Shown one piece after another: positions 26,623 to 50,244 of a stretch of DNA of 64,000 bases. The translations under genes were made by a program, and so were the position numbers. Every line of letters begins with the position of its first letter. Positions within the stretch are counted from its first letter, which is position 1. Below the pieces are notes generated by a model. That model ran no database searches and was not told the origin of the DNA. It worked only from the letters and a program-made list of their open reading frames with translations. This stretch comes from Punctularia strigosozonata HHB-11173 SS5 (Eukaryota > Basidiomycota > Agaricomycetes > Corticiales > Punctulariaceae), in the NCBI RefSeq assembly GCF_000264995.1, contig NW_006767433.1:2001581-2065580 (forward strand), written 5' to 3'.

Positions 26623-28533
26623 ATGACTTCTTCAATCATTCACGACATCAAGCCTCTCGCCGATCTGCACCCCAAGCCGGAATCGGTTCATTTTCAATAC
26701 GGCACCGCCGGTTTTAGGACTCTGTACGTAGCGTCAAGTCCTCAATACAAACATAGGCTGACGAGTAGAGGACAGAGGTCATGTGCTGGACTCTGTCCTG
26801 TTCCGCGTAGGCATACTTGCAGCTTTGAGGAGCAAGAAGCAGGATGGCAAAACCATCGGAGTGATGGTCACCGCTTCGCATAACCCAGAAGTTGTGAGAT
26901 AGGCCCATCTTGATCGCGCCGCCATTACCACTCAGATCGTTAACAGGACAATGGTGTGAAACTTGTTGATCCTCGTGGCGAGATGCTCGAAAGCTCCTGG
27001 GAAGCGCATGCCACCAATATCGCCAATGCACCCACCACGGACGCCCTCGTCGCTGGTCTGGTCAAATTTGTAGATGATTTGAAGATAGATTTATCCAAGC
27101 CCGCGAGGGTTGTATATGCCCGTGACACTAGGCCTTCTGGAGCCGCCCTGGTGTCTGCACTAGACGACGGTTTGAAGGCCCTCGGCGCAGAAGTTCGGGA
27201 TGCTGGTGTGACGACAACACCGATTCTGCATTACCTGGTCAAGGCGATCAATACCAAGGGTACATCTGATTCATACGGGGATGACTCGGAGGAGGGGTAC
27301 TACCAGAAATTGAGCTCTGCCTTCAAAAGGCTGGTGGTGAGTTACTGGGCACATGCTCTTGACGCGTTTCGTAACCACTGCTATAGAAAGGGCGGCCAGC
27401 CATACCTCCGTTACTGATTGACTGTGCAAACGGAGTTGGTGCATTTGCTGCTGAAAAGCTCGCTCAGCATTTGCAAGATTCCATCACCTTCATCTTGGCA
27501 AACACGTCAACAACAACTCCAGGTGCTCTGAATAACGCGTGCGGCGCTGATTTCGTCAAGACGCAACAGAAACTTCCGCCTTCTCTCGAGGGCAAACTGA
27601 AGTCCGGACAGCGGGCGTGCAGTCTGGACGGAGATGCCGATCGTCTGATGTACTTCTACCTCGACGAGCATAGTCAATTCCACATGCTCGACGGCGACAA
27701 GATCGCTGCCCTTGTGGCTGCGTTCATCGGGGAACTGGTCAAGGCCGCTGGCCTCGACGAAGACATCAAAGTGGGCATCGTGCAAACTGCGTACGCTAAC
27801 GGCGCTTCCACGAAGTACTTGGCTGACGTGAGTCTTGTAACTCCGCGTCCAACCTACGTTCTGACCTCCCCCTATCAGAGGGTACCAGTGAAATGTGTGC
27901 CCACCGGCGTTAAACACCTGCATCATGCTGCGGAGAGCTTCGATATCGGCGTGTATTTCGAAGCCAATGGGCATGGTACAGTCCTGTTCTCCCGCGAGAC
28001 ACAGGAGAAGCTTAGATCACACGAGCCAACATCTCCCGCTCAATCCACCGCGCAGGGCCACCTCATCGCTCTGACCGAACTGATCAACCAAACCGTCGGG
28101 GATGCATTGTCGGACATGCTGCTCGTGGAGGTCGTACTGGCACACAAATCATACACCGGCATCGAGTGGGATGCGTTATATGCAGACCTGCCGAACCGTC
28201 TTGTCAAAGTGGTGGTTGGGGATCGTAATGCCTTTAGGACAGTGGATGCAGAACGCCGCTTGGTGAGCCCTGCAGGGCTGCAAGAGAAGATCGACGCTCT
28301 CGTAGGCGGATTCGAAGGTGGAAGGTCTTTTGTCCGCCCAAGCGGTACAGAAGACGTCGTACGAGTGTATGCGGAAGCTTCCTCACGTGTTCAGGCGGAC
28401 GGTAAGCCATTCACCTCAGGAAGAGCCGTACGCTTTTCTGAACGGATCCACAGAACTCGCGTTTCGCGTTGCTGGCCTTGTTTACGATCAGGCAGGCGGA
28501 GATCCCGCGAAGCGTCCTGTCGAGTTCCTGTGA
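26623..28533 (+). CDS. PCM1: Phosphoacetylglucosamine mutase
   Basis: Converts GlcNAc-6-phosphate to GlcNAc-1-phosphate on the route to UDP-GlcNAc, used for chitin, N-glycans and GPI anchors. The start is ATG 26623 ([18 protein letters not shown]), followed by [11 protein letters not shown]. The phosphoserine loop is VTASHNPE and [19 protein letters not shown] follows after a short intron. RDTRPSG and the Mg2+-binding DGDADRLMY motif are present. [12 protein letters not shown] marks domain 3, and [14 protein letters not shown] is the phosphate-binding loop of domain 4. The last intron joins QAD to [16 protein letters not shown]. It ends PVEFL at TGA 28531-28533. All catalytic motifs are intact. 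Confidence 0.95.
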
Positions 28534-28747
28534 TAATGATGTTCCAAGTTTCGAAGTGCATTTCATTGGCATATGCACGACAAGAATCCGATGGTTTATT
28601 ATATGACTGACGTCGATCGCAGTCGAAACCACGCGTTCATATAGATGACACCAGGGAGCCTAGCGAAGACCAATCCCCCTAATGCCGGATACATGCAATT
28701 CATAAGATCAGCGTTGATTGAAGATCAAGCGTTGTACAACTTTTGCA

Positions 28748-45308: not shown

Positions 45309-47686
45309 TTAAAGCCTGCGTCGTTTTCCTTCGCTGGAGTTCAAGGTGCTACTTTTTCGCTTGACGCTCTCTACTAACTTTTGTAGGTTAGTATCACCAT
45401 CAGCGCCTACTTCCCTTGACGATAGTTTCTCAATCGGCTCTTGCGTCTTGCGGCGCTTTGCGCGCTCCTGTAGCAGTGCAGACATGTTCTTGGTCTTCTT
45501 GAAGCTGCGGGATTGCGCGTAGACCACGTCAGTAAGAGTCTGCAAAGGTAAATACATGTGCTCAACTGGGGATTGCTTGGGTCGATGGCAAATGTGTGAT
45601 CCTCATGCAGAGCCTTGAATCGCTCGTCCTTGACGTCGATAACGAAGTGCTCCTGCATCTCGTCAGGTCCATCATCCTCGAACTTGTCTTTTTTGCCCTT
45701 CTTCTTCTTTCCTTTTCCCTTCTCTGCCTTCAGTACCGCCTTCATGTCGAAGTGTTTGGTGCCGCCTTCGAGGTTGTCACCGCCTGTCAGCAGGGCGAGT
45801 TCCTCGGCTGTTGACTCTACACGCGCTCCCATGCGTTCTGTCAACCTCATCCTGTTCTTGCCCTTGTCACGCGTGTGCTCGGTTTTCTCATCTTCAGCCT
45901 CCTCGTCCTCACTAGCGGCACCGAAGAAGTCGTCCTCCGCGACCACTCCGCCTTTCTTCTTTTTCTCTTCCCCGGGGTTTTTATCCTTCGTCTTAGCTTC
46001 CGCCTTCCGTTTCTGCTTCTTTTCCTTCATTTTTCGCTGGTATTTCTCCAAGGTCGTCTCCTCATCGTCTCCCTTCGGCTTGGTACTGAAACCGGGTGCA
46101 AACGTGATCTCCATGTCGACATCATCTTCCTTCTTGTCGTTAGCAGTGCTTGCCCAGCCTTCTGGCATTGCATCGCCATTCCCTTCGAGCAGCAGCGCAC
46201 GCAGCCTGGCACGGTCCGAGGCCTTCTTATCTTTCTTATGGACGTCGCGAGCATCGGCTTCACTATCCGACTCGGACTCGGAAGAGGCGATGAGCGCCTT
46301 GAAATCTGCCTCCTCTATCTCCTGTTTCGACAGGGCGCGTCTCGTAATGCGCACTCGCTCTGGATCGTCTTCGTCCCAGGTGAGCTTGACTTTGGAATGC
46401 CGTAGGGCCTGGAAAGGCTGATTAGTCACGTAACAATCTCGGTTACAATTTGACGAACGTCTGTAACGAAGTCGAGCCCTTTGTACTGGTTTGAAGCTGT
46501 GTCATCAGTAGCTTCATCTCTGGGGGAATAGCATGAGCGCTGAGCACCTGATGGCCATGAAAAAGGTGTACCGGCACTCATCGTCGAACGTCATGTCATC
46601 CGGTACATAGCTGAGGTCAAAGACGTTCGCCGATCGTTCAAACTCGGTGCCTTCTAACTCAGAGTACACATAAGCTGCTGCTGGGACGCTATCGAACTCA
46701 GCGATAGCGTAATAGTACCTATGTTTCCGGGATTCAACGCTATTGCAATGCTCACGAAGCCATCACGTACCTCATGCGTTCGAGCTGGTACTTGCGCAGA
46801 GCATCCTCGTCGTAATCGTCTCCTTGCCCAACCTCAATTATATCCGAGGCGTCGCCGTCAGCGCTATCATCATCGTCCTTTTTCTTGAAAACCTCTGGAG
46901 GTGGACCCTCCCTTTCCTCTCTCGCTATCCTCTCTTTTCCGAACTGACTGGGATAAACCCGAACACTGAGAAGCCTGCCGCGCAACGAAGGCTGAGATCT
47001 TTGTGCAGCACGCTTTGAACCCTCCGAAGCGGGTGGTGAGAGAACGGAAGAGATGATCTTCCACAGGTGGAAGGCGCGAATGTGATCCCAGTCAAGATTG
47101 ACAATGGCAACACGCCGTGTAGGGTCTATGGTAGGCCGTCCATCTTCGTCGTCTTGAGCGCGGCGCGCAGCAGCGGCCTGGGCGTCCAGGTCTGCGAAAT
47201 TATCCTCATCCAGGTCAATCTCCGGCTCCTCGTCTTCGTCGAGCACTCGTATGGGTTTCGTTTTGTCTTGGTCGAGAGTTACGACGCCGTCGCCCTCGTC
47301 ATCGCTCTCCTCATCTTCCAAGCCGCTCTTCCCACCATCGTCTGACGACTCCAACAGGACTTCACCTCGCGCGTAGTCCACCAGCTTCGGCGTCTCCTCC
47401 TCCTCCTCCTCCTCTTCGTTCTCGAGGCGATAGAAGCGACGAAGATTTTCACTATCGTGATCCCCTAAAAGCTTGCGTCCATACTTGTCTACACGACCTG
47501 ATCGTCGCCGTCATCAACACCAGGCGTCACGACTGAGAATCATTGCGACGCACCCTTGGACTTCCCCTTGTCTGCCTTGCCGAAGACGCTCTTGAAACGT
47601 TCATCGACTACAACTTTCTGGTCCTTCTTTCGGATTTTTCTGAAACGCGGGTCTGTTTTGAGTCTCGCAAAACGAGGATCTGACAT
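45309..47686 (-). CDS. ESF1: Nucleolar pre-rRNA processing protein ESF1
   Basis: ESF1 is a 90S/SSU-processome factor needed for 18S rRNA synthesis. The start is ATG 47686 (MSDPRFARLKTDPRFRKIR), followed by KVVVDERFKSVFGK and KYGRKLLGDHDSENLRRFYR. A long acidic block includes seven Glu from a (CTC)n tract at about 47395-47420. The central domain has RRVAIVNLDWDHIRAFHLWK, VRVYPSQFGKERIAREER and YDEDALRKYQLERMR. Then come YYYAIAEFDSVPAAAYVYSE and the KLTWDEDDPERVRITRR segment. A Lys-rich region precedes the C-terminal NUC153 domain (DERFKALHEDHTFAIDPSNP). It ends KRRRL at TAA 45309-45311. Few introns. Confidence 0.95.
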
Positions 47687-48654
47687 GTCGATGATATATG
47701 TCTATTGTACACCTGGGACCGGGAGAGGGAAAACGGGTAAGAAATTCGGCATAGCCACCATGTCATTGCACATGGCTTGCAAGACCCTCGCATGCGGACT
47801 CCATTCATACCGTAAGTACTGACCGTTGTTCGAGGATTATTATCAACAACTCGGACACAGATATGCACGTCGGCATATAAAGACTGGGATCAGCGTTCAT
47901 CACGCGCTCCATTGAACAACGAGGACCGAGTTGGTCTATGTAAGTCGGACGGATCGCGCCCTAATAGCAGTCTCCACGCATCGCGGACTCTCAGGGTGCT
48001 TCATCTGCCGTGGTTGCTCCAGATCCGCCATCAAACCGGTAGACATGGGACGAAGGCCGTCCGAGCGAGTGGCACGGTGATGAAGACCTGAGTTTGCGCG
48101 CGCCCGTTTTGTCTGCGGCGAGCTGTGTGTGTGGGATACAAATTGCGATGCTCCAATGATAGCATGGCCGACGACCCCAGAATTCCATGGCTGATCGAAG
48201 GTGCCACATGCAACGCATAGGGCGGACAAATGCAAGCAAAGCGTGCTCGAGGAGAGAAGGAGTCTCGCAGGTGAATGATACGTTACGCTGGGCTGTTCGC
48301 CCCGGGTGGACGCTACGTAGACTGCAATATGAACTGGTGCGGCGAGAGATGATGCCAGGAATAGACACAGCCATCGAAGGAGCGAAATCACCGAGTTGCC
48401 TGACGACGACCAATCAAGTTCTCTGCCACGCGGGCCCTTATATACCCTCCTCCCTCTCTCTCTGTCGCCCATCCCCTCCCCAGTGAGTGCCGTCCTTATG
48501 CTCCGCCGCCGTCCATATTGACCGTTTCTCCAGATCGTTCTCCGTTCTTCAAACGCTAGGCCGCCGGACGACCTTTTCATCGCATCCTTTCCGCCCAGCG
48601 CACCCCACATCAAGTCGACCTTGAAACCACATTCTTTTTCGCCTTAACGTCGCC
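47687..48654. promoter_or_regulatory. Divergent intergenic region upstream of ESF1 and the repeat-peptide gene
   Basis: 968 bp, one of the longer gaps. Toward the right it holds a TATA-like TTATATACCC at 48438-48447, then a CT-rich tract (CTCCCTCTCTCTCTGTCGCC, 48451-48470, continuing to 48482). These fit a strong core promoter and initiator for the secreted repeat protein, with a 5' UTR of about 170-200 nt. No gene was supported inside it. Confidence 0.55.
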
Positions 48655-49598
48655 ATGTTCGCTCGAAGCGCCGCCGTTCTCGTCACGCTTGCCGTGATCC
48701 TCGTCAGCCAGGTTGCGGCAGTGCCTGCGGTCGAGGCAGTGAGTGAACTATCGATTCGCAGCTTAGCAGCGTTGATCTGAGACGATCCTTCCTTCAGCGC
48801 GCAGTTGCGGGCCGCGACCCTGTTGCGTTCGCTCCCATCCCTGCGTACGTCAAGCGCGCCAATGTCAACACCATACCCGCCGAGAAGGCGACCAAGGCAC
48901 CCAACGGTGTAATCGAGGAGTACGAGAAGCGCGCCGTCAACACCATGCCGGAGGAGAAGCCCACGAAGGCCCCCAACGGTGCGATCGAAGCGTACGGCAA
49001 GCGCGCCAACGTGAACACAATCCCCGCCGAGAAGGCGACCAAAGCCCCCAACGGCGTTATCGAGGCGTACGAGAAGCGCGCAAACGTGAACACCATCCCC
49101 GCCGAGAAGGCAACCAAGGCGCCCAACGGCGTCATCGAGGCGTACGGCAAACGTGCAAACGTTAACACCATCCCTGCCGAGAAGGCGACCAAGGCACCCA
49201 ACGGCGTCATCGAGGCTTACGAGAAGCGCGCGAACGTGAACACCATTCCGGCTGAGAAAGCCACCAAGGCGCCTAACGGTGTGATCGAGGAGTACGAGAA
49301 GCGCGCCGTCAACACCATGCCGGAGGAGAAGCCCACGAAGGCCCCCAACGGTGCGATCGAGGCGTACGGCAAGCGCGCCAACGTGAACACCATCCCTGCC
49401 GAGAAAGCGACCAAGGCGCCTAACGGTGTCATCGAGGCGTATGGCAAGCGTGCAAACGTCAACACCATCCCGGCGGAGAAGGCGACTAAGGCACCGAACG
49501 GTGTTATCGAAGCCTACGGGAAACGTGCCAACGTCAACACTATACCCGCAGAGAAGGCGACCAAGGCTCCCAACGGCGTGATTGAGGAGTACAACTAA
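48655..49598 (+). CDS. Secreted KEX2-processed repeat protein (KEP-like peptide precursor)
   Basis: 294 residues from two exons (48655-48738 and 48798-49598; intron 48739-48797). A signal peptide, MFARSAAVLVTLAVILVSQV, has a positive N-region, a hydrophobic core and an Ala-Val-Ala cleavage zone. A 20-residue spacer ends in AYVKR. Ten tandem repeats follow. The common unit is ANVNTIPAEKATKAPNGVIE plus AY(G or E) or EYE, then KR; copies 2 and 7 are a 24-residue variant (AVNTMPEEKPTKAPNGAIE plus AYGKR). The last copy ends EEYN with no dibasic. Lys-Arg at every junction is the Kex2 site, so secretion should release about ten 21-23-residue peptides. There are no Cys. Each unit has one Tyr near its C-end. 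The function is unknown: hyphal-surface peptides, signals or RiPP cores all have this design. Confidence 0.9.
48858..49598 (+). repeat. Coding tandem array, ten units of 75/72 bp, with a 372-bp higher-order period
   Basis: Units begin at 48858, 48933, 49005, 49080, 49155, 49230, 49305, 49377, 49452 and 49527. Units 1-5 and 6-10 match as blocks: each begins with an EEYEKR unit, then the shorter Met-containing unit. Units 2 and 7 differ at only one base, while other units with identical peptides differ at many third codon positions. Confidence 0.9.
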
Positions 49599-50244
49599 AT
49601 CGTGAGTTTATCTCACGTTCATTCGGGAACTACGGGTTGACGACTGCATGGCATAGGGTCATGGCTTGCTCAAGGCATGGTTGGTGGACGGATCCGGCGA
49701 CGCGGGATCCTCAACGCGGCCGGCGAGATGTGATGCGCGAAGGGACACGATGACTGTACACTTTATGGATGCGATCGTGCTAGCCACGATCTGGTATCTT
49801 TTTGTCGTTCTATGCGCAACGGAGAATCGATTTGCATGGGTTTTGGGTCAGCTGCACGCTTGTGAATTCAGATACGGGGTTCGAACGACGTCCTACTGCG
49901 TGCGCTGAAATTTGGATTCATTCCAGAAGAGCGCACGATAGGTACGCAGCAGAAGCAGATAGATGTATGCTTGGGCGGCCATTGAAACGTTACCTCCGCA
50001 TAGGTGATATCAAATTCATCCTGTATTCAGCCGTTCGCATCATGATCGACATCCACTTAGAGCAGGTTGGAATCTTATCGATACAGGTGCAGTATTAATA
50101 TTCCTTGCTTATCGCGCTCACCTTCCTCTCCGTCTGACACGGCCCACTTGGCCCACTTGGCCCACTTGGTTGATTTGATCAGCGTCAGCCCGCTCTCCAT
50201 ATAAACAGACCGCATCCGTTCCCCTGTTTCACTCGCACACACCA
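49599..50244. other. Intergenic region and promoter of the alcohol dehydrogenase gene
   Basis: 646 bp. No gene was supported. The right end holds a triplicated 9-mer (50141-50169) and a TATA-like CATATAAA at 50199-50206, about 40 bp before the alcohol dehydrogenase start codon. Confidence 0.55.
50141..50169. repeat. 9-bp tandem repeat (GGCCCACTT) x3.2
   Basis: GGCCCACTT at 50141-50149, 50150-50158 and 50159-50167, then GG. It sits about 75-105 bp upstream of the alcohol dehydrogenase ATG and 30 bp before the TATA-like element, so it may be a repeated activator site. Confidence 0.75.

Follow-up and report, generated by a model that had tools for sequence, protein, structure and literature searches.

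A predicted ten-unit KEX2-type repeat protein of Punctularia strigosozonata is a high-copy member of a widespread agaricomycete peptide family

The window analysed here is a stretch of 64,000 nucleotides of Punctularia strigosozonata HHB-11173 SS5 (contig NW_006767433.1, positions 2,001,581 to 2,065,580). On its forward strand, translation after splicing of positions 48655-49598 yields a predicted precursor of 294 amino acids composed of a hydrophobic leader, a spacer and ten repeat units (Table 1). The start ATG at 48655 and the stop TAA at 49596-49598 lie where an earlier note on this DNA had placed them. The genomic reading frames of leader and repeats do not coincide, so an intron is needed in the gene model: removal of a predicted 59-bp intron (GTGAGT...TTCAG, 48739-48797) brings both into one frame. 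Two further donor/acceptor pairs among those tried likewise preserve the frame, but their donors are weaker. The leader begins MFARSAAVLVTLAVILVSQVAAVPA..., and its Kyte-Doolittle hydropathy peaks at 3.12 in the 12-residue stretch that starts at residue 6. It resembles the leaders of homologous proteins in alignment; three Lactarius proteins rank first by leader score, and an unnamed metagenomic protein and those of Macrolepiota, Hymenopellis and Russula follow close together. The spacer ends in PIPAYVKR, and 20 of the 44 relatives, a set that includes many fragments, contain a loose PIxAYxxR-like pattern.

Table 1. Coordinates of the predicted precursor gene, its repeat units and neighbouring genes in the window.
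Feature	Position	Strand	Basis or remark
Exon 1, signal-peptide-like leader MFARSAAVLVTLAVILVSQVAAVPAVEA	48655..48738	+	translation; hydropathy; aligns with homologues' leaders
Intron, 59 bp	48739..48797	+	predicted from sequence
Exon 2: spacer RAVAGRDPVAFAPIPAYVKR, ten units, stop TAA	48798..49598	+	translation
Pro-spacer, ends in KR	48798..48857	+	PIxAYxxR-like segment recurs in relatives
Unit 1, ANVNTIPAEKATKAPNGVIEEYE-KR	48858..48932	+	
Unit 2, variant AVNTMPEEKPTKAPNGAIEAYG-KR	48933..49004	+	one synonymous difference from unit 7
Unit 3, ...EAYE-KR	49005..49079	+	
Unit 4, ...EAYG-KR	49080..49154	+	
Unit 5, ...EAYE-KR	49155..49229	+	
Unit 6, ...EEYE-KR	49230..49304	+	
Unit 7, variant AVNTMPEEKPTKAPNGAIEAYG-KR	49305..49376	+	
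Unit 8, ...EAYG-KR	49377..49451	+	
Unit 9, ...EAYG-KR	49452..49526	+	
Unit 10, ...EEYN, C-terminal, without KR	49527..49595	+	
NUC153 and RRM_ESF1, two parts of one ESF1-like gene	45410-47510	-	Pfam
Ribosomal protein L4	55036-55974	+	Pfam
Phosphoacetylglucosamine mutase	27387-28607	+	Pfam

Nine of the 29 other window ORFs that were scanned, which represent part of its gene content, gave a Pfam match. In addition to the genes in Table 1, the matches include PfkB, alpha/beta hydrolase, Pex16, SNAP and PINIT, and no biosynthetic cluster was recognized among the ORFs scanned. Judged by eye, the downstream gene from about 50245 presumably encodes a zinc alcohol dehydrogenase-like protein; pieces of its first exon gave no Pfam match. 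A short tandem repeat (GGCCCACTT, 3.2 copies) lies just upstream of this gene at 50141-50169. For the precursor itself, no Pfam match exceeded the curated cut-offs, and sub-threshold matches were treated as chance. An antisense stop-to-stop ORF of 352 codons (48552-49607, minus strand) spans the whole array; since the homologues match the plus frame, this ORF is probably a by-product of the codon use of the repeat. We did not detect a second precursor locus in the 33.6-Mb genome (32 contigs) with the window sequence and the relative P0006 as queries, a search that strongly diverged copies might escape.

The ten units occupy positions 48858-49595 (residues 49-294 of 294) and measure 23-25 amino acids each, with Lys-Arg at all nine internal junctions and directly before unit 1. 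Units 1, 3-6 and 8-10 consist of ANVNTIPAEKATKAPNGVIE followed by EYE, AYE, AYG, AYE, EYE, AYG, AYG and EYN, respectively, and units 2 and 7 are a variant that is one residue shorter. The KEX2-repeat architecture proposed in the earlier note is supported, and its remark that each unit has one Tyr and no Cys is correct; its count of ten near-identical units holds for eight, the other two being the shorter variant. Tandem Repeats Finder reports periods of 75 (10.1 copies, score 835), 297 (score 983) and 372, the latter corresponding to five units (score 1157). In the available text of Le Marquer 2019 (PMC6339444), KEX2-processed repeat proteins (KEPs) are defined by criteria that include a secretion signal and no later transmembrane segment. 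That definition calls for at least three similar fragments between KR, RR or KK sites, of which the precursor has ten, and for repeats covering at least 15% of the protein, which here extend over residues 49-294 of 294.

Substitutions among the units are mostly silent. The eight units starting with ANV present a pS of 0.596 and a pN of 0.031 (ratio 0.05), and the corresponding values for all ten units are 0.571 and 0.056 (ratio 0.10). Residues 1-20 are invariant across the eight ANV units while the codons vary at 17 of these 20 positions, and the variable residues are those before the Tyr (A/E) and after it (E/G/N). Judged from this codon pattern, most units appear to be old and to have been kept alike through selection on the peptide. 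Units 2 and 7, in contrast, differ by one synonymous base, and an exact tract of 77 bp is shared by 48912-48988 and 49284-49360, which points to a recent copy. The two units are five units apart and therefore fit the 372-bp period. The earlier suggestion of selection rather than recent duplication alone is supported by the low pN/pS of the ANV units, although recent copying has evidently contributed as well in the case of units 2 and 7.

Three protein searches combined yielded at least 44 related proteins at E≤1e-3. The window protein alone retrieved at least one protein at this threshold, a search with two query sequences at least 12, and a search with nine query sequences 42. P0002 and P0010 were contributed by the two-sequence search only, and members of the query profiles score high by construction. 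One metagenomic protein matches the window precursor at 1.1e-40. Thirteen relatives carry a species name and all of these are agaricomycetes (Russula decolorans, R. earlei, R. aff. rugulosa, Lactarius vividus, L. indigo, L. psammicola, Amanita thiersii, Macrolepiota fuliginosa, Hymenopellis radicata, Lentinula raphanica, Agrocybe chaxingu, Sparassis crispa and Trametes cinnabarina); the other 31 are without one. Their common core is a block of 17 residues, IPxExxTKAPNGxIxxY, most often bordered downstream by a dibasic site or by the protein end. Defining a core unit as a 17-mer with at least six of seven key residues, we counted 129 units, including at least one truncated copy (P0009), in 40 of the 45 proteins (window included). 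By eye, the remaining five proteins comprise one fragment and four in which the repeat has diverged. A second pattern with free spacing returned a length of 17 in 100 of 100 matches; it missed the last repeat of P0018, which by eye is 18 long. Across the 40 proteins, the consensus residues are Pro2 (40), Gly12 (40), Ile1 (37), Glu4 (36), Pro10 (35) and Lys8 (33), with Tyr (34) or Phe (6) at position 17, counts that lean upward because the same positions were used to pick the units.

The borders of the core are largely conserved together with the core. Upstream, the border is a dibasic site in 115 of the 129 units and a single Arg in 13, and one unit has neither. Downstream, a dibasic site follows within 0-3 residues in 91 units, the protein ends in 19 (some of which are perhaps contig ends), a single Arg is found in seven, and 12 have no close basic residue. 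The 36 units of the 13 named species have 31 dibasic sites and five single Arg upstream and, downstream, 20 dibasic sites, six protein ends, five single Arg and five units with none of these. The earlier note had named orthologues that keep the repeat body without its KR junctions as evidence against its reading; the junctions are largely kept dibasic, with single Arg sites in some species, so this objection does not arise. These counts also bear on whether the repeat protein might escape cleavage and serve intact in the wall or matrix, the KR pairs being incidental. Such a reading draws on the fact that processing in P. strigosozonata is deduced from relatives. Yet a dibasic pair occurs inside none of the relatives' 119 core units and at most of the junctions, spacer length varies while core length is constant, and processing has been demonstrated in Coprinopsis cinerea and Pichia (PMC9769878, available text). 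We consider an intact protein extremely improbable.

After the upstream dibasic site, Gln starts 76 of 105 units of the relatives; it is absent from this position in the window, where all ten units start with Ala. The residue between the Tyr and the dibasic site is V in 24 core units, A in 19, G in nine, P in six, T in five and E in five, with others also seen and none at all in ten. We therefore rejected amidation via the Gly of YG-KR as a feature of the family; a genome search for PAM gave no match, and its control was also silent. The protein ends at the Tyr in six of the 13 named-species relatives, one of which (P0018) ends after a diverged repeat, and does not in the other seven. The Russula and Lactarius homologues P0005, P0007, P0021, P0023, P0024 and P0030 resemble the window precursor in their core, present in P0030 in diverged form only, and in a leader with a hydrophobic start, and in several of them NT precedes IP. 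They differ from it in having at most four detected core units against ten, and usually Gln or Asp rather than Ala after the dibasic site. Outside the window, no protein of the set exceeds six units, although many of these proteins are fragments. P0010 (Amanita thiersii) presents six units followed by a long repeat-free C-terminal part in the predicted protein, possibly a fused gene model. Identity between units is 87% within a protein and 57% between proteins, which suggests, from sequence comparison, that units are homogenized within genes alongside selection.

The earlier note stated that the peptide resembled none known to it. This does not stand: in addition to the relatives above, the core is identical at 11 of 17 positions (IPAE, TK, NG, IE, Y) to a peptide of C. 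cinerea KEP 497993, a comparison with the peptide and not with its full precursor. None of 100,000 shuffled versions of the C. cinerea peptide reached its alignment score with a window unit, a comparison of one pair chosen post hoc, after PMC9769878. Among the papers listed for the core strings, PMC9769878 is the one that contains the C. cinerea peptide; the other four strings are absent from it, and the remaining titles appear unrelated. According to that text (Vogt et al. 2022, PMC9769878), pyro-QIPAELPTKSINGNIEPY and a form ending in ...YK were detected by mass spectrometry, and the ...IEPY and ...IEPYK peptides vanish in the kep knockout. They are found mainly in premature caps and are undetectable in C. 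cinerea culture supernatant, a point against secretion as a free signal there; a different peptide of the same precursor is present in that supernatant. In the supernatant of Pichia expressing KEP 497993, pyro-QIPAELPTKSINGNIEPYKV was found. The same source reports at least 13 homologues in agaricomycetes and a KEP 497993 knockout without a phenotype. Synthetic peptides assayed there were not antibacterial, and KEP peptides persisted in every single kex knockout, which its authors attribute to redundancy. KEP 497993 and its homologues in other agaricomycetes share with the window gene a KEX2 repeat precursor, and the released C. cinerea peptide carries its Tyr at or near the C-terminus, as is predicted for the window peptides. 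The six Tyr-ending relatives among the 13 named species are consistent with the C-terminus measured in C. cinerea (Tyr or Tyr+1). At the other end, the C. cinerea core starts with Gln, seen as pyroglutamate, whereas window units start with Ala and carry an A(N)VNT extension of 4-5 residues. Since cleavage would leave Ala and not Gln at the N-terminus, no pyroglutamate cap would be expected, unless the peptide is trimmed further.

The family can also be placed among catalogued KEPs. In the available text of Umemura 2020 (PMC7329392), type #7 (G-1/P-2) comprises 64 KEPs in 49 genera, the most genera of any type, with 27 Pfam names listed and a DUF3328 neighbour in none of its 64 members. Like the window family, this type is composed mostly of mushroom genera, has a Tyr-rich motif and is without DUF3328 neighbours. 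We scanned 33 of the 45 proteins against Pfam (E up to 10) and compared the best 25 of 59 names; four (TubC_N, SspK, DUF2188 and DUF1648) are on the G-1/P-2 list, an overlap with P = 1.4e-8 under random drawing, and none matched the 55 names of the other listed types. Because of this difference, the window family is probably type G-1/P-2, an assignment that follows from overlap of chance Pfam names and not from the sequences of the type. The IPxExxTKAPNGxIxxY motif is not among the conserved peptides listed in the available text of PMC6339444.

The absence of DUF3328 neighbours matters for a second reading, in which the gene encodes a dikaritin-type RiPP precursor and UstYa-family (DUF3328) enzymes would cyclise its Tyr-containing cores to give a toxin-like metabolite. 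Dikaritin precursors such as those of ustiloxin and phomopsin have a signal peptide, tandem cores, dibasic sites and Tyr, like the window precursor with its KEX2 architecture and one conserved Tyr per core, and the genome contains eight UstYa matches. All eight lie on contigs C4, C14, C19 and C22 and none on the contig of the gene, C1 (intron-split genes could escape); the window core is longer than in dikaritins, and in C. cinerea the homologue was observed in linear form, with pyroglutamate (PMC9769878, available text). With no UstYa match on its contig, the gene more likely yields a linear product than a cyclic one. The RiPP option offered by the earlier note is therefore disfavoured, and we regard it as very improbable. 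The UstYa matches themselves (three at C4:729-15172, two at C14:132981-135381, two at C22:244254-247103 and one at C19:210994-211236) mark candidate cyclic-peptide clusters.

Taken together, the precursor is very probably a KEP of the C. cinerea KEP 497993 family that is released as linear peptides. At the level of sequence this is supported by the architecture, by the common core with junctions that are largely conserved, and by purifying selection; from C. cinerea comes a homologous peptide in cap tissue and, from Pichia, one in culture supernatant (PMC9769878, available text). The leader would send the precursor through the secretory pathway, where KEX2 would cleave after each Lys-Arg and a KEX1-type carboxypeptidase would trim the basic residues. 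Each precursor would then yield ten linear peptides of 21-23 residues, mostly ANVNTIPAEKATKAPNGVIE[A/E]Y, perhaps one residue longer, plus AVNTMPEEKPTKAPNGAIEAY, with the 17-residue block from Ile-Pro to Tyr as the conserved functional part. Computed [M+2H]2+ values are 1136.103 for the predicted ANVNTIPAEKATKAPNGVIEAY, 1164.613 with an added G, 1200.624 with an added E, 1165.105 for the ...EEY form and 1116.054 for AVNTMPEEKPTKAPNGAIEAY. A KEX2-like candidate exists on contig C9, where two P_proprotein matches were found, one in an ORF with Peptidase_S8. S10 carboxypeptidases gave 47 genome matches, counted exon by exon, none of which was identified as KEX1, and a single DPPIV locus is a further candidate. 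Expression, splicing and processing in P. strigosozonata are predicted on these grounds, and the peptides may act as diffusible signals, received by the fungus itself or by its neighbours.

Two other fates of the released peptides were considered. They might be structural or surface-active, assembling on hyphae like Rep1 of Ustilago maydis, which follows the same processing logic and whose peptides form amyloid-like fibrils (PMC9769878, available text); the many copies per precursor would suit this. The predicted peptides are, however, hydrophilic (GRAVY -0.24 to -0.73) with 2-3 Pro each, and a core of fixed length and strongly conserved residues is more reminiscent of a recognised ligand, making a surface role very improbable. 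Alternatively, they might be alpha-type mating-pheromone-like peptides trimmed by Ste13. Ascomycete alpha-pheromone precursors likewise contain tandem peptides freed by KEX2/KEX1, alpha-like KEPs are reported in basidiomycetes (available text of PMC6339444 and PMC9769878), and the genome has one DPPIV-family locus. Yet KR is followed by AN or AV in every one of the ten units, not by the XA/XP signature of Ste13, and the precursor has no Trp; STE2 gave no match in a genome search whose control was silent, which counts for little. A pheromone of this kind is highly improbable.

Under the linear KEP reading, the precursor is a high-copy member of a peptide family that is already described and widespread. 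What is unusual here is the number of units, the presence of two unit types, and Ala where most units of the relatives start with Gln. We tentatively propose, as a possibility that is more doubtful than the release of linear peptides, that IPxExxTKAPNGxIxxY is an agaricomycete-wide signal with a Tyr C-terminus and a dedicated receptor or host target, present here in ten copies and two forms and with its pyroglutamate cap lost. If so, loss of the cap would set the lifetime or range of the peptide. The fixed 17-residue core and its Tyr end define a target for a synthetic-peptide or receptor screen, in what is probably the KEP type represented in the largest number of fungal genera, of which the window member has the most units in our set.
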